Source: Alphaproteobacteria bacterium
GTDB lineage: Bacteria > Pseudomonadota > Alphaproteobacteria > Rhizobiales > Aestuariivirgaceae
Length of the DNA: 64,000 nt
Reading direction: 5' to 3'
Assembly (NCBI GenBank): GCA_024640405.1
Contig: JAHEFB010000006.1
Coordinates: 13,471-77,470 of the forward strand
The position numbers and the translations under genes are program-made. Of the stretch, positions 43,797-55,450 are shown in pieces; positions within the stretch are counted from its first letter, which is position 1, and each line of letters opens with the position of its first letter. The notes below the pieces were generated by a model, which saw only the letters and a list, made by a program, of their open reading frames with translations, did not search any database and was not told the DNA's origin.

Positions 43797-45188
43797 ATGA
43801 AAAAACTGCAGCGCCCAACTTTCCAGGAACTTCTGGTAGCAGCATTGAGGACACCGCTGGGAAGTCTGGTGGCGCGACCATGGTTTGATCATGTTGCGCT
43901 CAACACAGTTGCATACTGGTTTTTCCCATTATCTCGATTGTGGGCATCAGCGCGCGCCGCAGAGGGCTCAGCGGAGCGTTTTTTCGAGAACGCGCGCATT
44001 ACACCATCACCGAAACTCACCGAAAGGGCCAAGCGTAACCTGGCTGAATTCGAAACCGTTCGTCACCGTGTGCTGGGCACTGAACGGAAATGGGAAAGCG
44101 TCATTTTCGGGGTCGAAGAACCTGCACCTGATGCCGCGTTGGATGCCGAGCATGAACGCCTCGGCAATCGCAACCAGTACAACAACCTGCGCCGCATGTT
44201 CATTCCCTTGCGACTGGCAAGGAGTGTGCAGCCGGTACGCTGGCAAATTCCGTCACCTGCCGACGTAGGTGCGGTCTACGATATGCTGCTTGCCGATCCG
44301 GCAAAGGCATTCAGGCCTCCTGATCCGATGCCGCAGGTAACGGTTTCGCACCGCCTGGGGACAGTTGAAGAGGGGCAGAGTTACTGGCTTCGGTTCAATT
44401 CTCCTTCGCCTCGCATGAACGATCAGGTGATTGCGCGCGTGTATGAGCCTGCCTGCGCGGAGAATGCGCCTACCTTGATTTTCGGACACGGCATCTGCGT
44501 CGAGTTCGATCACTGGAAAGGTCTGGTGGACGAAGTTGAGGCCATGGTGAAGATGGGTATCCGCGTTGTTCGTCCGGAAGCACCCTGGCACGGTCGGCGT
44601 GTTCCAGATGGCATGTATGGCGGCGAAAAATTCATCGCGACCGCCCCGATGGGTGCGCTGGACCTGTTCACATCGGCGGCACAGGAGTGGTCTGTCATCA
44701 TCGACTGGCTGAGACGCACCACCGATACGCCGATCGCCATTGGCGGCAGCAGCCTAGGCGCGATGACATCCCAGATTATCTGTGACAAAGCACGCTACTG
44801 GCCTGAACGCCTGCAACCTGACGCTGCATTCCTGGTTACTCATTGCGGCCATATAGAAGATGCCGTGGTCCATGGAAAACTGGCCGAAGTCTGGGGCATT
44901 GCAAAGGCGACGATAGACCAGGGCTGGCGCACCGACTTGATCAGGCGCTACATGCCATTGTTCGAGGCGGAGGGCCTGCCGATCATCCCGCCCGAGAATA
45001 TTGTCACCGTGCTCGGCGACCACGACAATGTAACACCGTTCAACAGTGCACGGACACTGATCGATGAGTGGAGTGTTCCCGAGGAAAACCAGTTTGTATA
45101 TCGGCGTGGCCACTTCAGCGTGCCGGTCGGCATGATGCGTGATCACGCTCCGCTGGTGAAGTTACGGCAAATCCTCGACGAGCTTTAG
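43797..45188 (+). CDS. Large alpha/beta hydrolase
   Basis: A 463-residue alpha/beta-hydrolase with a long N-terminal extension of about 220 residues. The oxyanion loop is LIFGHGICVEFDHW, the nucleophile elbow IAIGGSSLGAMTSQII, and the acid and histidine lie in VLGDHDNVTPFNSA and YRRGHFSVPVG. Function unknown; the adjacent acyltransferase suggests lipid ester metabolism (inference). Its stop overlaps the stop of the convergent AtuA-type unit by 3 bases. Confidence 0.8.
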   Translation: MKKLQRPTFQELLVAALRTPLGSLVARPWFDHVALNTVAYWFFPLSRLWASARAAEGSAERFFENARITPSPKLTERAKRNLAEFETVRHRVLGTERKWESVIFGVEEPAPDAALDAEHERLGNRNQYNNLRRMFIPLRLARSVQPVRWQIPSPADVGAVYDMLLADPAKAFRPPDPMPQVTVSHRLGTVEEGQSYWLRFNSPSPRMNDQVIARVYEPACAENAPTLIFGHGICVEFDHWKGLVDEVEAMVKMGIRVVRPEAPWHGRRVPDGMYGGEKFIATAPMGALDLFTSAAQEWSVIIDWLRRTTDTPIAIGGSSLGAMTSQIICDKARYWPERLQPDAAFLVTHCGHIEDAVVHGKLAEVWGIAKATIDQGWRTDLIRRYMPLFEAEGLPIIPPENIVTVLGDHDNVTPFNSARTLIDEWSVPEENQFVYRRGHFSVPVGMMRDHAPLVKLRQILDEL

Positions 45189-45571
45189 ACGCCGGGCAGG
45201 GCAGGCGGAAAATCATGCCGGTCAATCCAGCCATCTGGCGCGGGGATTTTCATGTCAAGCAGCACATAGCCAAGCGTCTTGCCATGCCGGTCCAGTTTCA
45301 GGTTGACGTTGACCCCGCCACCCAGTGCGCCTTCCAGCACAAAATTCATCGCACCGATTTTTGGCAGGACATAGCGGGTGACACTGCCCGGCGGATCAAG
45401 CGCAAACGCCTGCAGACACAGTTCCTCCGTGACATGAGCCTTCAGATGGCCGAAGTGTTTGTCGTCGAACGCGATCACCGAGATGTTCAACCGGTCGCCC
45501 TTGTCACCGGCTCGCCCGTGGGCCAGATATCGAATCGGTATCATCTCTGCAGGCAGATTTTCTGCTGTCAC
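45185..45571 (-). CDS. Small AtuA-associated protein
   Basis: A 128-residue protein matching the short domain found C-terminal to, or encoded beside, AtuA/DUF1446 proteins: IRYLAHGRAGDKGDRLNISV, then GAMNFVLEGALGGGVNVNLK. AtuA was described in acyclic-terpene utilisation, but the biochemical role is unclear. The start overlaps the end of the larger AtuA-like gene by 4 bases (ATGA), so they form one translational unit; in other genomes the two parts can be fused. Confidence 0.85.
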   Translation of the reverse strand: MTAENLPAEMIPIRYLAHGRAGDKGDRLNISVIAFDDKHFGHLKAHVTEELCLQAFALDPPGSVTRYVLPKIGAMNFVLEGALGGGVNVNLKLDRHGKTLGYVLLDMKIPAPDGWIDRHDFPPALPGV

Positions 45572-46860
45572 AGCGTTTCCTCCAGCAGATAGCCGCGTGA
45601 AACAGCTTCGTGCTGACGCACACGGCCTTCCACCGTTGCTGTCCGGGCAGAGATAGTCATGCGGATGCCACCGCCACCGGCAGGGCCGTTCAGATAGAGT
45701 GCTTCAAATTCATCGAACAGAAGCTGTATATCCTGTCGGTCGGTACTGGCGGCAGCCATCCTGAGACGCACGTCACGTGGGCGGTATTGGCTGTTTGTAA
45801 CATCATCATACATTGCGCCGATTATATCGAAGTGCGGAGATGCTTCAGGCGCGATGAGGTCAAGGCGTTCCTGCAGTATGGATTTCGCCATCACCGCACG
45901 CTCAAGGCTGGTGTCGCCCATGTAGGATATCTCGGCTTCTCCCATCCAGCCATTGTCAACGCAGGTAAGTGTTTTCAATGTGTCGGGTCTGGGCAGGCCC
46001 CGGCAGCCGGTAAGGGTGACCTGGTTCGCGCGGCTCTGATGCATTGAAACATCGGAAATATCCATCACCACGTCGGGCGTCAGATAACATGCCGGATCAT
46101 GTATTTCGTACAGCAATTGTTCTTTCACGGTGGCTGTCGTCAGGATGCCGCCGCCAAGGGGCTTACTCAAAATAAGCCGCTCGTGGTCACCGGAGATACT
46201 GGCGATAGGAGCGCCGGGCCGGGCGAGGCCCGGTACTGTTTTGTTGCCACTGTCGGCAAAATATCCGCCACAGACCTGGGTTCCACATTCGATCAGGTGA
46301 CCCGCAAGTGTGGCTTGCGCAAGTCGGTCCCACTGGCTCCATTTCAGCCTGAGCTCGTGAACCACCGGCCCGACGACAAGCGACGGATCCGCCACTCTTC
46401 CGGTAACCACAATGTCAGCGCCGGCGGCCAGCGCCTCGACGATGCCGCGGGCCCCGATATAGGCATTGCGGGCAATTGCACCGGCACCATGATCATCAAC
46501 CTTGACCGGCAATTCATCGCCAAGCACATAGCCCACTTTCCGCCAAAGATTGTTCTGCTGGAGAAAACCGGTGATGGCTTCTGCCACTTCCCTGGGCGCG
46601 CTGCCGCCGAAATTGCTGATGATCCTGATGTCATTGCGCACGCAGGTGTTGATGCAGGCTTCCAGGTAGCTGATCGCCCGCTCGATCTGCCGGCGTCTGC
46701 CATCGGCGCTCTGGGCAAGCGCAAGTGTTCGTTCGGCCAGGCATTCGAAAATCAGGTACCTTCTACCCTGAAACAGTGTCAGCGACTGGGCTGCGATTTC
46801 ACCCAGTTCTCGCCGGTCATTTGCAAACCCCGCCCCCGCCGCAATGTGGACCTCAGTCAA
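45568..46860 (-). CDS. AtuA-family (DUF1446) protein
   Basis: A 430-residue AtuA-like protein. Characteristic stretches are VHIAAGAGFANDRRELGEIA, RIISNFGGSAPREVAEAI, DIVVTGRVADPSLVVGPVV and ISGDHERLILSKPLGGGILT. Family members occur in terpenoid and branched-chain acid degradation clusters; no acyl-CoA genes are adjacent here. The frame starts with TTG at 46860 (MTEVHIAAGAG), with GGGA about 10 nt upstream and no ATG nearby. Confidence 0.87.
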   Translation of the reverse strand: MTEVHIAAGAGFANDRRELGEIAAQSLTLFQGRRYLIFECLAERTLALAQSADGRRRQIERAISYLEACINTCVRNDIRIISNFGGSAPREVAEAITGFLQQNNLWRKVGYVLGDELPVKVDDHGAGAIARNAYIGARGIVEALAAGADIVVTGRVADPSLVVGPVVHELRLKWSQWDRLAQATLAGHLIECGTQVCGGYFADSGNKTVPGLARPGAPIASISGDHERLILSKPLGGGILTTATVKEQLLYEIHDPACYLTPDVVMDISDVSMHQSRANQVTLTGCRGLPRPDTLKTLTCVDNGWMGEAEISYMGDTSLERAVMAKSILQERLDLIAPEASPHFDIIGAMYDDVTNSQYRPRDVRLRMAAASTDRQDIQLLFDEFEALYLNGPAGGGGIRMTISARTATVEGRVRQHEAVSRGYLLEETL

Positions 46861-47421: not shown

Positions 47422-47595
47422 AGAAAGCCGGTCATTTTCGCCAACCGACCACAATTTGCAAGACGGGCTTTAGTCCCGTCACCACACTGTAACAAACCCG
47501 GTGCAGATATTATCGCATCGGGCAGACAGAGTTTTTCAAAAACGTTGCGACTTGCAACATTGGTACATGAGTTGGCGTGTGTGAAAAGCGGAACG

Positions 47596-47657
47596 TTCAA
47601 ATGAAGCTTTTATCGCGTAAAAAATATTCATTTGAAAATAATTGATGCGCACTTGAA
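47596..47657. promoter_or_regulatory. Candidate DeoR operators
   Basis: TTCAAATGAA (47596-47605) and its inverted form TTCATTTGAA (47627-47636) are 31 bp apart centre to centre, about three helical turns, and ACTTGAA follows at 47651. The TTTGAA word resembles half-sites of GlpR-type DeoR regulators. They lie 40-100 bp before the deoR-type gene that opens the transport operon. Confidence 0.55.
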
Positions 47658-47695: not shown

Positions 47696-48481
47696 ATGCA
47701 TGACATGCAGCTGTCCGAACGCCAGGTCGAAATTGCGGAACTGGTGCGCGAGCACGGGTTCCTGACGGTCGAGAAATTGGCCGGACATTTTGGTCTGACC
47801 ACCCAGACAATCAGGCGTGATTTGAACGTAGTATGTGATCACGACCTGGCCCGGCGGCGTCATGGCGGCATCGAGAGTTCGTCCAGATCCGAAAACATTA
47901 CCTATGAAAGCCGCCAGATACTGGCACGCAGTGCCAAACAGGCAATTGGACGCGAGGTCGCTCGTCACATTGCAAACGGGTCTTCCCTGGCCTTCAGCGT
48001 TGGAACCACACCGCAGGTTGTGGCAGAGGCGCTGCTTAACCACGACAGTTTGCGAGTGTTCACCAACAACCTGAACATCGCCATGCTGTGCTGCGGCAAC
48101 CTCACATTTGAGGTGAACATTGCAGGCGGCAGGTTGCGCAATTCCGACCGCGATATACTGGGCACCGGTCTGGATGAATTCCTGTCGTCCTATATGGTTG
48201 ATATCGGCATTTATGGCGTGGCCGGAGTTGCCGAAGATGGCACACTGCTGGACTTCTACGAAGAAGAGGTACGGGCCCGAAAGCTCATTCGGGAAAACAG
48301 CCGTGAGACATTTCTGGTGCTTGATCACACCAAGTTCGAACGCGCTGCCCATGTCCGCGGCGGCAATGTCGGCGAAGCGACAAAGGTGTTCTGCAATGCT
48401 TATCCGCCGGAGAACATTCTGGAGATACTGGCCGGTTCCGGGACCGAACTTGTTGTGTGCGGCGAGGAAGCGGCAACATGA
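47696..48481 (+). CDS. DeoR-family regulator of the ABC/EEP/HAD operon
   Basis: A 261-residue GlpR-like regulator. The DeoR helix-turn-helix is LSERQVEIAELVREHGFLTV then TTQTIRRDLNVVCDHDLARR with RRHGG. The ligand domain has SLAFSVGTTPQVVAEALL, which normally senses a sugar or polyol phosphate, and VFTNNLNIAMLCC. AAGGAGAGG precedes the ATG. It overlaps the ABC ATPase gene by 4 bases, so it is the first gene of the operon it probably controls. Confidence 0.92.
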   Translation: MHDMQLSERQVEIAELVREHGFLTVEKLAGHFGLTTQTIRRDLNVVCDHDLARRRHGGIESSSRSENITYESRQILARSAKQAIGREVARHIANGSSLAFSVGTTPQVVAEALLNHDSLRVFTNNLNIAMLCCGNLTFEVNIAGGRLRNSDRDILGTGLDEFLSSYMVDIGIYGVAGVAEDGTLLDFYEEEVRARKLIRENSRETFLVLDHTKFERAAHVRGGNVGEATKVFCNAYPPENILEILAGSGTELVVCGEEAAT

Positions 48482-49536
48482 GTGGCATCCAGATACACAA
48501 CCTGGTCAAGCAATGGGATGAAGTGCGTGCCGTTGATGACGTGTCGTTTGAGGTCCCTCAGGGCAGCCTGACGGTTTTGCTTGGCCCGTCAGGGTGCGGC
48601 AAGTCAACCATACTGCGGATGATTGCCGGGCTCGAAGACGCCAGTGACGGTGAGATACTCATTGATGGAAACGATGTCACCCGCGAAGACCCGTCCAGGC
48701 GAGGCGTCTCGATGGTGTTTCAATCCTATGCGCTGTTTCCTCATCTGAGTGTGCGCGAGAATATTCTGTTTGGCCTGAAAGTCCGCCGCGTGCCGGTTGC
48801 CGAGCAGGAAAAGCGGCTGCTGGAAGCTGCTGAACTTGTTGGCCTGGCACATCTGCTTGACCGCAAGCCGGCCAACCTGTCCGGTGGGCAGCGCCAGCGT
48901 GTCGCCTTGTCCCGGACCATTGTGTCCAACCAGCCGGTGTGTCTGATGGACGAACCGTTGTCGAACCTGGATGCCAAGCTAAGAGCCGAAATGCGCGACG
49001 AGATCTGTGCGCTGCAGCGCAAGCTTTCGCTGACCATGGTATACGTTACCCACGACCAGATTGAGGCCATGTCGATGGCCGACCAGGTAGTGCTGTTGAA
49101 GGGCGGACAGGTGGAGCAGGTCGGTACGCCGACGGACCTGTATGAAGCTCCTCAGACAACGTTTGCCGCCAGCTTCCTGGGAATGCCGCCCATGAATGTC
49201 ATTCCCTTGGACCAGATTTCTGGCGGTGAGGCACTGCAGGGTGGTTTGCCGCAAGCCAGGCCGGACTGGTTGCTGGGCATTCGCCCGGAACAGATCCGGA
49301 TTGCGGAGAATGGAATACCGGTCGAGGTTACCGCTGCCGATTACATGGGGGCTGAAACGGTATTGCGCCTGCAACACGGGAAGCAGGTTGTCATGGCGCG
49401 GGTTCATGGCCGCCCACCTGCAGACGTTGGGGACAAACTGCGGATCGCCTGGGCGGCTGACGACATACATCTGTTTGACGAAAACGGGGCAAGACGGGGA
49501 GGCCCGGACACAGCGGTGTCACAACCGGCTTTGTAG
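48478..49536 (+). CDS. ABC importer ATPase, UgpC/MalK type
   Basis: A 352-residue ATPase of the carbohydrate-uptake (CUT1) class. Walker A is LLGPSGCGKSTILRM, the Q-loop FQSYALFPHL, the signature LSGGQRQRVALSRT, Walker B VCLMDEPLSNLDA and the H-loop VYVTHDQIEAMSM. The C-terminal third is a TOBE-type domain (WLLGIRPEQIRI). The start at 48478 overlaps the deoR stop (ATGA). It energises the two permeases encoded downstream. Confidence 0.95.
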   Translation: MSGIQIHNLVKQWDEVRAVDDVSFEVPQGSLTVLLGPSGCGKSTILRMIAGLEDASDGEILIDGNDVTREDPSRRGVSMVFQSYALFPHLSVRENILFGLKVRRVPVAEQEKRLLEAAELVGLAHLLDRKPANLSGGQRQRVALSRTIVSNQPVCLMDEPLSNLDAKLRAEMRDEICALQRKLSLTMVYVTHDQIEAMSMADQVVLLKGGQVEQVGTPTDLYEAPQTTFAASFLGMPPMNVIPLDQISGGEALQGGLPQARPDWLLGIRPEQIRIAENGIPVEVTAADYMGAETVLRLQHGKQVVMARVHGRPPADVGDKLRIAWAADDIHLFDENGARRGGPDTAVSQPAL

Positions 49537-49617
49537 TGATGTTGTGCCGGCAACGCTAACGGGATGGGCAAAGTGGATCCCGGAACCTGAAATTGTAAAG
49601 GAGAGGAGTCGTATCAA

Positions 49618-50910
49618 ATGTTTAAACTTATCACAAAGACAATGGCCGGCATCGTCGCTGCTGTCTGTCTGTCAATCATGGCAGCGAGCCTGTCGACAGC
49701 GGCCTATGCCAAAACCAAACTGACTATGTATTATCCCGTCGCGGTTGGCGGGCCATTGACCAAAATCGTTGATGGTATGGTCGCGGACTTTATGAAGCAG
49801 AATCCGGACATCGAGGTAAATGCCATCTATGCCGGAAACTACAACGATGCCCGTATCAAGGCGCTTGCCGCCTTGAATAGTGGTCAACCTGCCCAGCTTT
49901 CGGTAATGTTCTCAATCGATCTGTACGAGCTCATTGAACAGGATGCCATTGTCGCCTTTGATGATGTGGTCAAGACCGATGAAGAAAAGGACTGGCTGAA
50001 ATCGTTCTATCCGACGCTGATGCAAAACGGTACCACCGGCGGCAAGACCTGGGGAATTCCGTTCCAGCGCTCGACCATCGTGATGTACTACAACAAGGAT
50101 GCCTTCAAGGCTGCAGGACTGGATCCTGAGAAGGCACCTGCATCCTGGGACGAACTGGTCGCGGCAGGCAAAAAACTGACCAAGAGCGACGGTTCGCAGT
50201 GGGGTATGATGATCCCGTCGACCGGCTATCCGTACTGGATGTTCGGTGCCCTGTCGATGCAGAACGACCAGGTGCTGATGAACAGCGCCGGCAACCAGAC
50301 CAACTTTGCTGAACCGGCAACCATTGAGGCCCTGCAGTTCTGGAAGGACCTGGGGTCAAAACACAAGGTAATGCCGGATGGCACCATTGAATGGGGCACG
50401 CTCCGCAAGAATTTTCTTGAAGGCAAGACCGCCATCATGTGGCATTCGACCGGCAATCTGACCACTGTAAAGAAGAAAGCTGCATTCGATTTCGGTGTGG
50501 CCATGCTGCCGGCCAACAAGCGCCGCGGCACACCGACCGGCGGTGGCAACTTCTATATCTTCAAGAAGACCACACCGGAGGAGCGTTCGGCGTCCATGAA
50601 GCTGATCAAGTTCATGACCAGCCCGGCACAATCTGCCAACTGGTCAATGCAGACCGGTTACATGGGTATCAGCCAGGCTGCATATGACACCAGCGAGCTG
50701 CAGGAATACGTAAAGGGTTTTCCTTACGCAGCCGTGGCTCGTGACCAGTTGGAATTCGCCACTGCCGAACTTTCGACTTACGAGACAGGCCGGGTGCGCA
50801 AGTCACTGGATGATGCCATTCAGGCGGCACTCACAGGCAGCAAGACGCCGGAAGAGGCGCTGAAGGAAGCTCAGGCAACAGCAGATCGCCTGCTCAAGCC
50901 TTACCGCTGA
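49618..50910 (+). CDS. ABC importer substrate-binding protein, UgpB type
   Basis: A 430-residue periplasmic binding protein. The signal peptide has the core GIVAAVCLSIMAASLSTAAY ending before AKTK. The mature protein shows the UgpB/MalE-type fold (LTMYYPVAVGGPLTKIVDGM, ARIKALAALNSGQPAQLSVM, WGIPFQRSTIVMYYNKDAF, GTPTGGGNFYIF). UgpB binds glycerol-3-phosphate and glycerophosphocholine; the ligand here is probably related but not proven. AAGGAGAGG precedes the start. An 81-bp gap separates it from the ATPase gene. Confidence 0.93.
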   Translation: MFKLITKTMAGIVAAVCLSIMAASLSTAAYAKTKLTMYYPVAVGGPLTKIVDGMVADFMKQNPDIEVNAIYAGNYNDARIKALAALNSGQPAQLSVMFSIDLYELIEQDAIVAFDDVVKTDEEKDWLKSFYPTLMQNGTTGGKTWGIPFQRSTIVMYYNKDAFKAAGLDPEKAPASWDELVAAGKKLTKSDGSQWGMMIPSTGYPYWMFGALSMQNDQVLMNSAGNQTNFAEPATIEALQFWKDLGSKHKVMPDGTIEWGTLRKNFLEGKTAIMWHSTGNLTTVKKKAAFDFGVAMLPANKRRGTPTGGGNFYIFKKTTPEERSASMKLIKFMTSPAQSANWSMQTGYMGISQAAYDTSELQEYVKGFPYAAVARDQLEFATAELSTYETGRVRKSLDDAIQAALTGSKTPEEALKEAQATADRLLKPYR

Positions 50911-50990
50911 TACCGGACAAGCCTGGCATGGGGCACACACGTTGTTGTCGCCCCATGTCTATTGCACTGAACTTCGACCGGAGTTGGTAA

Positions 50991-51875
50991 ATGCATCTGT
51001 CGCGAGACACCATGAGACACGTACACGGCTGGTTGCTGCTGACACCAGCTGCCGTCCTGCTGGTGTCCTTTACCCACTATCCAACCATTGCGACAGTCAT
51101 CAACAGCTTCTTTTCAAAGGGGAATTCAGTACGCCCGTCGCGCTTCATCGGCATAGACAATTATCAGGCGATGACCCAGGATCCGATTTTCTGGAAAGTG
51201 CTTGTCAACAATATGTGGTTTGCCGTGGGCACCATTCCGACCTCCATCGCACTGGCCATCATCATGGCACTTCTGGTCAACCGCGCCATGCCGGGCCGTT
51301 CATTCGTGCGTATGGCATATTTTACGCCGACCATTCTGCCGATGATCGCCGTTGCCAACATCTGGCTGTTCTTCTATTCGCCGGATATTGGCCTGATCGA
51401 CCAGATTACCAGCTGGTTCGGCATTTCCGGACATAACTGGCTGGGGGATCCCGACACGGTCCTGTCGGCGATAATCGTCATGACGGTTTGGAAAGAGGCA
51501 GGGTTTTTCATGATTTTTTACCTGGCCGCCCTGCAACATATTCCCCCTGAACTGGGCGAAGCGGCCAAGCTGGAAGGCGCATCGCGCTGGTACTATTTTC
51601 GCCGGGTGTTGTTCCCGCTTTTGATGCCGACCTCGCTGTTCGTGCTGATCAATGCGGTGCTCAACTCATTCAAGCTGGTTGATCATCTGTTTGTGTTGAC
51701 CAAGGGCGGGCCTGACAATGCCAGCAACCTGCTGCTCTACTACATATTTGAAAACGCGTTTTCCTATTTTGACACCAACTATGCCGCGACGCTGACAGTA
51801 GTACTGCTGGGCCTGCTGGCGATCATGGCGCTGGCACAGTTTTTCGTTCTTGACCGGCGGATACACTACCGATGA
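50991..51875 (+). CDS. ABC importer permease, UgpA type
   Basis: A 294-residue inner-membrane permease with six helices. The EAA loop that contacts the ATPase is PPELGEAAKLEGASRWYYFR. It begins with helix 1 (GWLLLTPAAVLLVSFTHYPT) and ends LAQFFVLDRRIHYR. GGAG lies 9 nt before the ATG. It overlaps the second permease gene by 4 bases. Confidence 0.93.
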   Translation: MHLSRDTMRHVHGWLLLTPAAVLLVSFTHYPTIATVINSFFSKGNSVRPSRFIGIDNYQAMTQDPIFWKVLVNNMWFAVGTIPTSIALAIIMALLVNRAMPGRSFVRMAYFTPTILPMIAVANIWLFFYSPDIGLIDQITSWFGISGHNWLGDPDTVLSAIIVMTVWKEAGFFMIFYLAALQHIPPELGEAAKLEGASRWYYFRRVLFPLLMPTSLFVLINAVLNSFKLVDHLFVLTKGGPDNASNLLLYYIFENAFSYFDTNYAATLTVVLLGLLAIMALAQFFVLDRRIHYR

Positions 51876-52702
51876 CCAGGCCAGCCCACACCACTCGAAG
51901 TTATACCGAGATTCTCGAGTACATCGGGGCCTGGGTGCTCGCCTTGCTGTGGATCGCGCCGCTGCTGTATGCATTCTGGGCGGCTTTTCATCCCAGTGAA
52001 TACTCAACAAACTTCGACCTGTTGGCACCACTGACGCTGGACAATTTCCGCGAAGCGCTGTCGCAGGCACCGTTCCTGCGCTACGGGATAAACACCTTCC
52101 TGCTCGTCACCATGCTTCTTGCGGCCCAGATGGTGGTCGGCACGCTTGCAGCCTATGCCTTTGCCCGTTTTCAGTTCTTTGGCAGCAATGTCGCCTTTGG
52201 GCTGGTTCTCGTGCAATTGATGATCACTCCGGAAATACTGATCGTCGAGAACTACTCCACGCTTGCAAAACTGGGCTTCGTCGACACCATCACTGGCATT
52301 GGTCTGCCTTACATGGCCAGCGCTTTCGGCATCTTCCTTTTGCGCCAGGCATTCAAATCGACACCGAAGGAACTGGAGGACGCGGCCCGGTTGGAAGGCT
52401 GCGGCATGTTCGGCATCCTCATGCGGGTATATGTTCCACTTGCACGTCCGACTTATCTGGCCTTCGGCCTGGTTTCCATCAGCCACCACTGGAACAATTT
52501 CCTCTGGCCGCTGGTCATCACCAATTCGGTAGAGACCCGGCCGTTGACCGTCGGGCTGGGGATTTTCGGTGCTCCCGAATCCGGTGTCGACTGGTCGATT
52601 GTCTCTGCTGCCACTCTGTTGTCGGTGGCTCCACTGCTGATTGCCTTCCTGCTGTTCCAGAGGCAATTCGTGCAATCCTTCATGTATGCGGGCATTAAAT
52701 GA
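51872..52702 (+). CDS. ABC importer permease, UgpE type
   Basis: A 276-residue permease with six helices, partner of the UgpA-like protein. The EAA loop is PKELEDAARLEGCGMFGILM; the C-terminus is FLLFQRQFVQSFMYAGIK, the usual CUT1 ending. Both its start and stop overlap neighbouring genes by 4 bases (ATGA), showing tight translational coupling with the permease before and the phosphodiesterase gene after. Confidence 0.93.
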   Translation: MTRPAHTTRSYTEILEYIGAWVLALLWIAPLLYAFWAAFHPSEYSTNFDLLAPLTLDNFREALSQAPFLRYGINTFLLVTMLLAAQMVVGTLAAYAFARFQFFGSNVAFGLVLVQLMITPEILIVENYSTLAKLGFVDTITGIGLPYMASAFGIFLLRQAFKSTPKELEDAARLEGCGMFGILMRVYVPLARPTYLAFGLVSISHHWNNFLWPLVITNSVETRPLTVGLGIFGAPESGVDWSIVSAATLLSVAPLLIAFLLFQRQFVQSFMYAGIK

Positions 52703-53562
52703 CCGTTATTGCGTCGTGGAACATCCAGAATGGCAAGGGCACAGACGAGATCGTCTCACTGTCACGCATCGCTGACGTCATCTTCAATATGGGCGATCCG
52801 GACATTATCTGTCTGCAGGAAGTGTCGCGGCATTTACCTCTATTTGGGGCTGACAATGCTGTCGACCAGATCGCGGAACTGTCCGGTCTGTTTCCCGGCT
52901 ATGAAGTTATCTTCGGCGTTGCGATCGAGGCAGCGAGTTCAGGTTCCCCACAACGGTGGCAATACGGCAATGCCACGCTGACCCGGTTGCCGGTTCTTTC
53001 TGTGTTTCATCATCCGTTGCCCCAGCCCGCCCACGCCGGTGTGCGCCAGATGCCGCGCCAGGTAACCGAAACAACCGTTTCTGCCGGCTCCGGATCATTG
53101 CGGGTAATGAACACACACCTGGAATTTCACTCCCGGCGACAACGGCTGGCGCAGATCGAAAGACTGCGGGAACTTCAGCAACAGGCAGCTGCAAATGTGA
53201 TTGACCCGCCAGATCATGATGCGGCCGGCAGTTACCAGTTGCTCAACCGGCCCGAGAACTGCGTCGTGTGTGGTGACTTCAATATTGAGGTGGACTCGCA
53301 GGAGTATCATGCCATGCTGGCTCCACTGGCGGATCATCCAGCGGGTTTTCGCGATGCCTGGGGCATTTGTAATGCCGGTCGCGCCCATGATCCGACCTGC
53401 GGGGTGCATGACAATGTGCAGTGGCCGCAGGGTCCGCACTGCCGCGATTTCTTCTTTGTCGCCGGGGCTGTGTCACAATGCCTGCAAGACGTTGGGGTCG
53501 ACACCGCGACCAATGCCTCGGATCACCAGCCGCTGATGCTGACGATCAGCGATGCGGTTTGA
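52699..53562 (+). CDS. Endonuclease/exonuclease/phosphatase-family hydrolase
   Basis: A 287-residue member of the EEP superfamily (DNase I-like fold), which cleaves phosphodiester or phosphomonoester bonds with a divalent metal. Key blocks are IASWNIQNGKG, DIICLQEVSRHLP (metal-binding Glu), MNTHLEFHSRRQRLAQIERL, VVCGDFNIEVDSQEYH and TNASDHQPLMLTI. No signal peptide is seen, so it works in the cytoplasm. Joined to the importer genes by a 4-base overlap, it probably cleaves the imported phosphodiester, the place held by GDPD-type UgpQ in classical ugp operons. Confidence 0.88.
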   Translation: MTVIASWNIQNGKGTDEIVSLSRIADVIFNMGDPDIICLQEVSRHLPLFGADNAVDQIAELSGLFPGYEVIFGVAIEAASSGSPQRWQYGNATLTRLPVLSVFHHPLPQPAHAGVRQMPRQVTETTVSAGSGSLRVMNTHLEFHSRRQRLAQIERLRELQQQAAANVIDPPDHDAAGSYQLLNRPENCVVCGDFNIEVDSQEYHAMLAPLADHPAGFRDAWGICNAGRAHDPTCGVHDNVQWPQGPHCRDFFFVAGAVSQCLQDVGVDTATNASDHQPLMLTISDAV

Positions 53563-53577
53563 GCGGAGACAGGTGCG

Positions 53578-54498
53578 ATTATTTTAGCCGTCGACAGCGT
53601 CATCTCCAGTTCCTGGGCGATAAACCGTTATGAGGCGGCGCGTTTCAGGCTTCCCGGCGCAGTGTTTCCGAAACACAGCATGGTTGCAGCAAGTCTCGAT
53701 GAGTTGAAAGACCTGTTCGACGCGTTTGTGTTCGACTCGTTTGGCGTTCTGAATGTCGGGGAAACTGCAATTTCTGGCGCATGTGAGCGCGTCGCGGAAT
53801 TGCGTGGTGATGGAAAGCAACTGGTTGTACTGACCAATGCTGCGACCATACCGCTTGGCGGTCTGGTGCAGAAATACGCAGGTCTGGGTTTTCGGTTCAC
53901 TAGTCGGGAAATTGTCAGCAGTCGCGAAGTGCTGGCCAAGGGGATGCCGTCTTACGGTGATAATTGGAAATGGGGTATTGCAGCACCGCCCCAATCGAAA
54001 GTTCATGAGTTGCCCGGCCACTGCCACAACCTGGCTGTTTGCCAAGGCAGTTTTGACAACAGTCATGGATTTGTGCTGCTCAGCAGCAGCGGCTGGACTG
54101 ATCAGCTGCAATCCATGCTGGTCACTGCCATGCGGGAGCGCCCGCGCCCCTTGCTTGTCGGCAATCCGGACGTGGTTGCGCCGCGTGAGGACGGCCTGAC
54201 GCTGGAACCCGGCGCATTCGCCCACGACATGGCCGATGCTCTGGGTGTGGCGCCGATATTCTACGGTAAACCGTTCGGCAACGCGTTTGACGAGGTTGAA
54301 AGCCGACTTGAACCTGTAGTCGATCCAAAGCGGATCGCCATGATTGGCGACAGTCTACACACCGATATTCTGGGTGGTGCGGCGGCAGGATGGCGAACTG
54401 TCCTGGTAACGGACCATGGACTTGCAAAGGGACGGAACGTTGATGAATTGATCAGCTCTACCGGCATCGTGCCCGACTTTATCATTCCGTCGATCTAA
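53578..54498 (+). CDS. HAD-superfamily class IIA phosphatase-like protein
   Basis: A HAD-IIA (NagD-like) protein, 306 residues if started at ATT 53578. Motif I reads FVFDSFGVLNVGETAISGAC, where the usual second Asp of DxD is Phe, a replacement I recall in one HAD-IIA subgroup. Later blocks are LVVLTNAATIP (motif II), FYGKPFGNAFDEV (Lys) and IAMIGDSLHTDILGGAAAGW (motif III). Upstream codons SSWAINRYEAARFRLPGA look like genuine family sequence, yet no ATG, GTG or TTG precedes them; ATT at 53578 has GGAG 9 nt upstream and follows the EEP stop by 15 bases. GTG at 53662 or ATG at 53680 would give a shorter protein. Likely dephosphorylates the EEP product. Confidence 0.8.
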   Translation: MILAVDSVISSSWAINRYEAARFRLPGAVFPKHSMVAASLDELKDLFDAFVFDSFGVLNVGETAISGACERVAELRGDGKQLVVLTNAATIPLGGLVQKYAGLGFRFTSREIVSSREVLAKGMPSYGDNWKWGIAAPPQSKVHELPGHCHNLAVCQGSFDNSHGFVLLSSSGWTDQLQSMLVTAMRERPRPLLVGNPDVVAPREDGLTLEPGAFAHDMADALGVAPIFYGKPFGNAFDEVESRLEPVVDPKRIAMIGDSLHTDILGGAAAGWRTVLVTDHGLAKGRNVDELISSTGIVPDFIIPSI

Positions 54499-54598: not shown

Positions 54599-54763
54599 CA
54601 GTGGCTGGACCGGCACATCACCTTCACATGGAAGTGACGCGGATTGATTTCCCATTGCAACACGTTGCTGGTCACAATGATCCACAGGATTCAGGAGTTA
54701 AATCAAGTGGATCGGGCCTGCACATCGCGAACTCAGTACTCCGGTGATTGTTTCTGGAAAAGT

Positions 54764-55450
54764 ATGGTTGGTGCGAGGAACCTGGCGGCATTGACTCTGG
54801 TCATTGCAATCTCGGCGGGGTCGGTGTTGTCAGCTGCTGCGCAGGTCAATCGGGCGGATGTGGACGATGAAAGGGAACCAGTTCGCACCGGTCCGATAAA
54901 ACAGGCCGAAGACCCCAGCGGACCGCGCCGGCATTTTCGCTTGAGAAATCCAGCCCGCCTGAGCGGCGAAGAGGCCGAGCGTCTGTACGGCCAAATCAAG
55001 CAGGAAATGGCAAAATGCTATGGCATCTCGAAGCTGCCGGCCACCGGCGATTACCTGAACTGGAAACGCTACAACAATGCCCCGTATCCGAGCGTGTCGC
55101 ATGGCAACAGATTTGTCAGTAATTATGCAAATTCCGAGGCCGGTGCTTATGGGCGATACGAACAGACCGGGCGGCTGCCCGTAGGTTCCATTCTTGCGAA
55201 GGACAGTATTACGGTCGGCAAGGACGGTGTGGCCATACCGGGCGCGCTGTTCCTGATGGAAAAGATGCCGGCGGGCTTCAACTATGTCAGCGGTGATTGG
55301 CGTTACACCATGGTCATGCCGGATGGCAGCATTTTCGGGATCACAAATGGAGTAGGCTCGGAGCGGGTGAAATTCTGCATTTCCTGTCATCTGGCCGTCG
55401 AAAAACAGGATCACCTGTTCTTCATTCCGGATGAATACCGGGTCAAGTAG
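54764..55450 (+). CDS. Secreted cytochrome P460-like protein
   Basis: A 228-residue periplasmic protein with signal peptide (ARNLAALTLVIAISAGSVLS before AAAQ). The C-terminal domain ends in VKFCISCHLAVEKQDHLFFI, whose CxxCH binds one c-type haem. The preceding block (GNRFVSNYANSEAGAYGRYE, GALFLMEKMPAGFNYVSGDW) fits the cytochrome P460 domain. P460 enzymes oxidise hydroxylamine or detoxify nitrogen oxides, but the family is broad. ATG at 54764 is preceded by GGAAAAG; the frame is open 40 codons further upstream without sense. It sits alone, convergent with a LysR gene. Confidence 0.78.
   Translation: MVGARNLAALTLVIAISAGSVLSAAAQVNRADVDDEREPVRTGPIKQAEDPSGPRRHFRLRNPARLSGEEAERLYGQIKQEMAKCYGISKLPATGDYLNWKRYNNAPYPSVSHGNRFVSNYANSEAGAYGRYEQTGRLPVGSILAKDSITVGKDGVAIPGALFLMEKMPAGFNYVSGDWRYTMVMPDGSIFGITNGVGSERVKFCISCHLAVEKQDHLFFIPDEYRVK

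Follow-up and report, generated by a model that had tools for sequence, protein, structure and literature searches.

What does a bacterium take up when a transporter of the Ugp kind is encoded together with a phosphoesterase that is unrelated to UgpQ? This question is raised by an operon of seven genes, all on the + strand, that occupies positions 47696-54498 of a 64,000-nucleotide stretch of DNA (hereafter the window; contig JAHEFB010000006.1, positions 13,471 to 77,470) from an alphaproteobacterium of the family Aestuariivirgaceae. The operon encodes a DeoR-type regulator (DeoR), a CUT1-type ATP-binding cassette (ABC) importer composed of an ATPase, a periplasmic binding protein (SBP) and two permeases (PermA and PermB), an EEP-fold phosphoesterase (EEP) and a HAD-IIA-like hydrolase (HAD). 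It represents a novel form of Ugp-type operon, and gene context and conserved residues speak strongly for a role in taking up and splitting a small phosphodiester. In the proposed pathway, a locally regulated Ugp-like ABC importer would bring an organic phosphodiester of small size into the cytoplasm, the most likely compound being a glycerophosphodiester or a close analogue. There the EEP, encoded together with the last permease, would split it, and the products would be an alcohol plus a phosphomonoester, for instance glycerol phosphate. From the latter the HAD-IIA-like enzyme would then produce phosphate and glycerol, and the glycerol could be used by the glycerol kinase, for which a gene is present in the same genome. 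We regard this complete series of import, EEP cleavage of a glycerophosphodiester-like compound and dephosphorylation by the HAD as moderately probable. The analysis establishes the gene order, the conservation of importer plus EEP, the residues of the SBP and the EEP, the gpxB association of the HAD family and the palindrome pair; we infer the substrate of the importer, the activities of the EEP and the HAD, the inducer of DeoR and the role of its operator. A glycerophosphodiester as substrate, with the HAD then acting on glycerol phosphate, is a good but hypothetical reading, and the imported diester is most likely related to membrane-lipid headgroups.

The operon is real. As described in an earlier, sequence-only reading of this DNA, its genes run in one direction and are joined by three 4-base overlaps, namely between DeoR and ATPase (ATGA, 48478-48481), PermA and PermB (51872-51875), and PermB and EEP (52699-52702); the single correction concerns the HAD gene, which starts upstream of GTG 53662. 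A longer ATPase open reading frame (ORF) from GTG 48457 is less likely than the one from 48478. The domain names given to the genes in that reading were borne out by Pfam and NCBIfam. When the transporter subunits were scored against the curated UgpB, UgpA, UgpE and UgpC models, every one remained below its cut-off (Table 1), and the system is therefore called Ugp-like here, as it is not established as Ugp itself. Like Escherichia coli ugpBAEC-ugpQ, the operon combines a CUT1 importer, consisting of a UgpB-like SBP, UgpA/E-like permeases and a UgpC-like ATPase, with a 3′ gene for a (here proposed) intracellular phosphodiesterase. It differs from the E. coli system in that the diesterase is an EEP and not a GDPD, that the ATPase gene precedes the SBP gene and that a DeoR regulator lies within the operon. 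Besides the subunit scores, it departs from Ugp in one Trp and one Glu of the ligand pocket.

Best matches of the SBP in the PDB were the UgpB structures 6x84 and 4aq4 (E 5e-38), and its Pfam matches were restricted to PF13416 and PF01547. Ligand contacts were taken from the UgpB of Phaeobacter, which, together with GpxB, is described as a glycerol-1/3-phosphate importer in a 2025 paper (PMC12718374); the alignment was made with 9lff, whose residues fit the numbering of that paper. All four phosphate contacts of Phaeobacter UgpB (Y64, S143, S266 and Y342) were kept in the window SBP as Y75, S152, S277 and Y348. They were also kept in 18 aligned family members, where the third position is Thr in seven, and in distant EEP-linked SBPs from loci L015 and L016. 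None of the four was found in MalE or in a CUT1 sugar-type SBP (L011), and another CUT1 SBP (L138) had the first only. According to PMC12718374, this set of residues marks phosphate binders and not glucose binders. The presence of UgpB-type phosphate contacts thus sustained, on the side of the SBP, the earlier claim that a phosphodiester is imported. On the glycerol side of the pocket, Gly303 (G309), Arg393 (R394) and Trp191 (W207) were retained, the Arg393 position being altered in 6 of the 18 family members (to Thr, or to Tyr in one further member). Judged by these residues, the pocket looks suited to an organic phosphate and is not identical to that of UgpB.

The association of importer and EEP was investigated in 297 genomes of the window's order, where ten, the window's own included, contained the EEP at E <= 1e-30. 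Eight of the nine other genomes displayed the order ATPase-SBP-PermA-PermB-EEP, and in the ninth (G018) a contig end cuts the locus, leaving part of PermA, PermB and EEP visible; the EEP directly followed the second permease in all nine. The SBP of locus L020 is broken into two ORFs. In a wider scan of an 84,980-species collection, in which 80 of 92 loci were analysed, the cassette of importer plus EEP was detected by script in 31, and L158 was added by eye. The transporter lay at least 2 kb upstream of the EEP in L091 and L136, L140 was cut by its contig, and the remaining loci, many from Burkholderiales, had no Ugp-like transporter adjoining the EEP. The 4-base ATGA overlap recurred in 16 of 46 cassette loci, or in 15 of 45 distinct ones, as L019 and L089 are one contig and distinct counts are one lower. 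The recurrence of this gene order in many genomes shows that the arrangement is more than chance and that the EEP is a conserved partner of the importer. When the search started instead from the SBP (E <= 1e-120), 33 of the 385 genomes drawn from the class matched, again with the own genome included. The end of PermB was visible in 31 of the 32 other loci; it was followed by an EEP gene in five, by a calcineurin-like (Metallophos) phosphoesterase gene in two and by neither in 23, and in L074 an EEP gene was located about 5.5 kb further on. Locus L059 has just 600 bases left on its contig. One of the 23 loci (L075) carries a PhoX alkaline phosphatase gene 128 bases 3′ of PermB; in Comamonas (L014) a PhoX gene is located slightly beyond the EEP on the opposite strand. 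A quick version of an SBP tree did not settle the number of EEP gains.

The enzyme is a member of the EEP superfamily by its fold and its conserved metal and catalytic residues. N8, E41, H140, D193, N195, D275 and H276, which we take to be catalytic, were invariant in 48 of 48 aligned EEPs. The AlphaFold model (pLDDT 95.6) matched best to 4ruw, an uncharacterised EEP (Z 28.4, root-mean-square deviation 3.6, 251 residues), followed at Z of about 26 by bacterial EEPs, TDP2 and the mannosyl-6-phosphatase Bt3783 (4c1r, Z 26.0), and at Z of about 23-24 by ExoIII types. This fold comparison made no choice among diester, monoester and nucleic-acid substrates. More is suggested by the two loci, L064 and L068, in which the Metallophos gene occupies the position of the EEP behind PermB. 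In a PDB comparison that covered the L068 enzyme, the best matches were 2dxl and 2zo9 (E 1e-25), with Rv0805 as a close second; 2ZO9 is identified as GpdQ, the glycerophosphodiesterase of Enterobacter aerogenes, in PMC6205647. SpdA and CpdA models also matched the L068 protein below cut-off, and its kinship to cyclic nucleotide phosphodiesterases is possible. GpdQ-type metallophosphodiesterases thus resemble the window EEP in the slot that they share, but differ from it in fold and family. Since the last gene of the E. coli ugp operon is the GDPD gene ugpQ, three unrelated phosphoesterase families stand in comparable positions behind related importers, which argues that the imported compound is a diester.

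Several observations weigh against this view of importer and EEP. Two residues on the glycerol side of the SBP pocket differ from UgpB (Glu88 to S99 and Trp188 to Y204), the slot was free of both EEP and Metallophos genes in 24 of the 31 transporter loci, and EEP relatives occurred apart from any such transporter in Burkholderia, Cupriavidus and Paraburkholderia. Furthermore, the GDPD family (PF03009) was present in all 38 genomes tested, the own genome included (one partial hit, E 1.4e-17), and UgpQ-like ORFs were located in L146 (1944-2726), roughly 2 kb 5′ of the EEP cassette, and in L111 (10718-11473), near a free-standing EEP. Therefore, the EEP does not simply fill a gap, and the idea that it stands in where GDPD is lacking was rejected. 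Both types of diesterase can co-occur at one locus; among the 80 loci analysed in the wider scan UgpQ-like ORFs were limited to L111 and L146, and none was found in the first 15 related loci or in the 32 SBP loci.

In 25 of the 31 cassette loci a close same-strand ORF was present 3′ of the EEP, these ORFs being called mechanically, so that some may be shadow frames. Among the listed Pfam matches (25 of 34 families) of the 19 ORFs that were run, two were to inositol-phosphatase, one to HAD Hydrolase_3, one to NUDIX and one to a Na/Pi-cotransporter, the other tested ORFs being unrelated or without match. In view of these mixed families, one common gene family behind the EEP was rejected. Directly 3′ of the EEP, inositol-monophosphatase-family genes are found in Bosea (L148, 9834-10652; L150, 5191-6006), which might be a sign of different diesters in this lineage, and NUDIX genes in Bradyrhizobium cassettes (L011, 8838-9215; L100, 9779-10219). 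In plasmids of Phyllobacterium (L015) and Nitratireductor (L016), EEP relatives that are more distant (about 31-33% identity) adjoin other CUT1 importers, and the clusters also hold a gene of either the HAD-IA or the Metallophos family.

The last step of the proposed pathway would depend on the HAD. Translated from the first ATG, GTG or TTG (GTG 53662), this protein was too short. Its frame is in phase with that of the EEP and open from the EEP stop (53560-53562) onward, and relatives share the N-terminal segment encoded 5′ of 53662, with Y18 and P26 (numbered in the longer protein) invariant in 14 aligned sequences. GTG 53662 is therefore too late as a start. No ATG, GTG or TTG was found between the EEP stop and 53662, and either an ATT-type start codon, possibly at 53578, or an error in the draft assembly is possible. 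The protein scored above cut-off with PF13344 and PF13242 and at 92.2 bits with TIGR01460 (cut-off 100.15), and it matched the HAD-IIA-type hydrolases 2hx1 (E 3.5e-16) and 7po7, a glycerol-3-phosphate phosphatase (E 4.5e-11).

Gene neighbourhoods connected this family with glycerol phosphates. In eight genomes (G113, G094, G006, G391, G559, G337, G460 and G660) a HAD relative, with one internal stop in G006, had a gpxB-type gene no more than 3 kb away. The SBP of G660 belongs to PF12974 and matched 9lf9 with 498 bits. Nine ligand residues of GpxB are given in PMC12718374 (T111, G112, Y138, S168, N169, S170, H199, R223 and T247); since all nine fall on the numbering of 9lf9, this structure was taken as GpxB. 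By hand count, 9 of 9 were kept in the G660 protein, to which the gpxB-type proteins of the other seven genomes were 62-79% identical. In G660 (locus L182) the HAD gene is flanked by the gpxB-type system on one side and on the other by a gene that scores as true ugpB (631 bits against a cut-off of 411). Beyond the gpxB-linked genomes, HAD relatives stood beside Ugp-like transporters in three more loci. In G449 (L068) the HAD relative is divergent from the Ugp-like transporter with the Metallophos gene. Among the 385 genomes drawn from the class, 13 were HAD-positive, of which 8 had gpxB, 10 a window-type SBP and 12 either, compared with 34 of the 372 other genomes for either (Fisher p 2.5e-11, phylogeny ignored). 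In the exception, G324, the HAD gene is about 3 kb from a gene for an ATPase that scored above the UgpC cut-off. This neighbourhood and co-occurrence tie the HAD family to glycerol phosphates. GpxB itself is of the PhnT family and, at E <= 1e-60, no gpxB was found in the own genome or in G018, both of which have the HAD behind the EEP. The L182 cluster holds the gpxB-type system and the HAD, ugpB, permease, ATPase and DeoR genes together, and would be a good site for studying the use of glycerol-1-phosphate.

Could the HAD nevertheless be a passenger, an independent gene with another role? This would concern the last step only and is compatible with the other alternatives below; we consider it a minority prospect, though the best of the alternatives. 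Directly behind the EEP, the HAD was seen only in the window, in G018 and in L094 (a gammaproteobacterial metagenome-assembled genome), and as a conserved operon member it was rejected for nearly all loci. There is a gap before the gene and no clear start codon. The proposed role of the HAD is further weakened by the separate contigs that carry gpxB and the HAD relative in G628, G561 and G430, by the non-glycerol genes scanned beside the HAD in G628, G561 and G635 (threonine aldolase, malonyl-CoA synthase, SDR and MFS), and by the co-occurrence tests, which disregard phylogeny. Motif I of HAD enzymes is usually DxD, with the second Asp as acid/base. In the window HAD it reads D53-S54-F55, and the third position was Phe or Tyr, with no second Asp, in 14 of 14 aligned sequences, a set that leaves out L192 and the HADs of genomes G113, G094 and G006. 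This atypical motif is the strongest point against a plain phosphatase; 7po7 differs from the window HAD in having Asp at this position, whereas 2hx1 has Phe as well. Against a passenger speak the divergent HAD relative at the same transporter in G449 and the tracking of the HAD with gpxB or the window-type SBP in 12 of 13 genomes. Of the earlier claim that the imported compound would finally be dephosphorylated by the HAD, the link of its relatives to gpxB and a Ugp-like transporter stood, while the rarity of the gene behind the EEP and the missing acid/base Asp spoke against it; likewise, from the pair of EEP and HAD beside the importer the EEP proved conserved and the HAD mostly not.

Regulation of the operon appears to be local. 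Upstream of DeoR, the palindromes TTCAAATGAA and TTCATTTGAA start 31 bases apart, and this pair occurred at one place only in the 4.37-Mb own genome and in three of six genomes searched. When DeoR matches no weaker than E 1e-20 were counted, 16 of 32 related loci had TTCANNTGAA close to the start of DeoR, with 0.024 expected per 380 bases, and these were 16 of the 19 loci with DeoR identity of at least 44% and none of the 13 below. Five of the latter (L020, L021, L022, L058 and L093, which are not copies of each other) directly precede an EEP cassette, as does L019, which likewise lacks TTCANNTGAA near DeoR and shares its contig with L089. Because the palindrome recurs in the closer loci, DeoR probably acts in this branch as a local repressor that also controls its own gene, and the pair is its candidate operator. 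NF008154 (PRK10906, presumably E. coli GlpR) was the best of 12 models for DeoR, yet with a score below the cut-off for GlpR; such kinship would fit a glycerol-phosphate-like inducer. Control by a Pho-box gained no support: the best site, at 47476, has 10 of 14 positions matching and is not beyond chance, with 0.28 such sites expected.

Two further alternatives concern the imported compound, and we consider both unlikely. In one, a dinucleotide or short oligonucleotide is imported, the EEP is a small nuclease and the HAD, or the other phosphatases in relatives, a nucleotidase. The nearest solved folds of the EEP do include the nucleic-acid enzymes TDP2 and ExoIII types, Bradyrhizobium cassettes carry a NUDIX gene behind the EEP, and a CUT1 relative of UgpB binds uridylyl-guanosine through the same four phosphate contacts, as stated in PMC12718374. 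The links of the HAD family to gpxB and ugp-like genes, the proximity of DeoR to a DeoR/GlpR model and the slot enzyme of L068 point away from nucleotides, this enzyme being nearest to GpdQ, though with Rv0805 close and SpdA and CpdA models matching. In the other alternative, for which we see no better prospects, the imported compound is a phosphomonoester on which the EEP acts as a phosphomonoesterase. Some EEPs, such as Bt3783, are phosphomonoesterases, and UgpB itself binds glycerol phosphates (PMC12718374), but the second phosphatase-like gene behind the EEP in several loci (HAD-IIA, HAD-IA, inositol-phosphatase family or HAD Hydrolase_3) would then be redundant. An agrocinopine-type substrate, also raised by the sequence-only reading, found no support, as the SBP scored as CUT1 and UgpB-like and its Pfam family gave no sign of such import (AccA, the SBP of the agrocinopine importer, which is of the peptide-binding type and thus of a different SBP family, was itself outside the comparison).

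Table 1. Features of the operon in the window and the models that support them.
Feature	Position	Strand	Basis
Paired palindromes, candidate DeoR operator	47596..47636	.	TTCAAATGAA 47596-47605 and TTCATTTGAA 47627-47636
DeoR/GlpR-like regulator	47696..48481	+	PF08220 and PF00455; NF008154 (PRK10906, DeoR/GlpR family) 223.1 bits, cut-off 331
CUT1 ABC ATPase, UgpC-like	48478..49536	+	NF008653 UgpC 400.2 bits, cut-off 432
Periplasmic binding protein (SBP), UgpB-like	49618..50910	+	NF008211 UgpB 173.6 bits, cut-off 411
Permease A, UgpA-like	50991..51875	+	PF00528; NF007852 108.6 bits, cut-off 335
Permease B, UgpE-like	51872..52702	+	PF00528; NF008210 120.5 bits, cut-off 297
EEP-fold metal-dependent phosphoesterase, proposed intracellular phosphodiesterase	52699..53562	+	PF03372 E 8e-19
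HAD-IIA-like hydrolase, proposed glycerol-phosphate phosphatase	53578..54498, start uncertain	+	PF13344, PF13242

The operon is flanked on its 5′ side by divergent genes on the - strand for an AtuA-family protein and for a protein with an AtuA ferredoxin-like domain (45185-46860), and directly on its 3′ side by a + strand gene for a cytochrome P460 domain protein (54644-55450). Among the papers listed in a literature search, none dealt with this operon by its title or abstract, which is a weak test of absence.

Together these findings point to an uncharacterised and widespread proteobacterial route for organic phosphate, in which the diesterase of a Ugp-like importer is exchanged for an EEP and in which two enzyme classes, EEP and Metallophos, alternate in one slot. 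By its gene neighbourhood, the HAD is a candidate for the use of imported glycerol-1-phosphate, a step for which no phosphatase or hydrolase-type enzyme was named in the main text of PMC12718374 under the terms searched. A bolder and rather improbable extension is that the HAD-IIA-like family is the missing bacterial glycerol-1-phosphate phosphatase, shared by the GpxB importer and the window operon, and that the EEP family makes up another class of glycerophosphodiesterase, the third and unrelated to the other two, possibly with another stereo- or regioselectivity than GDPD. If this were true, the EEP might release glycerol-1-phosphate from compounds such as glycerophosphoglycerol or archaeal headgroups, and its different selectivity would explain why it is retained despite the presence of GDPD in the genome.

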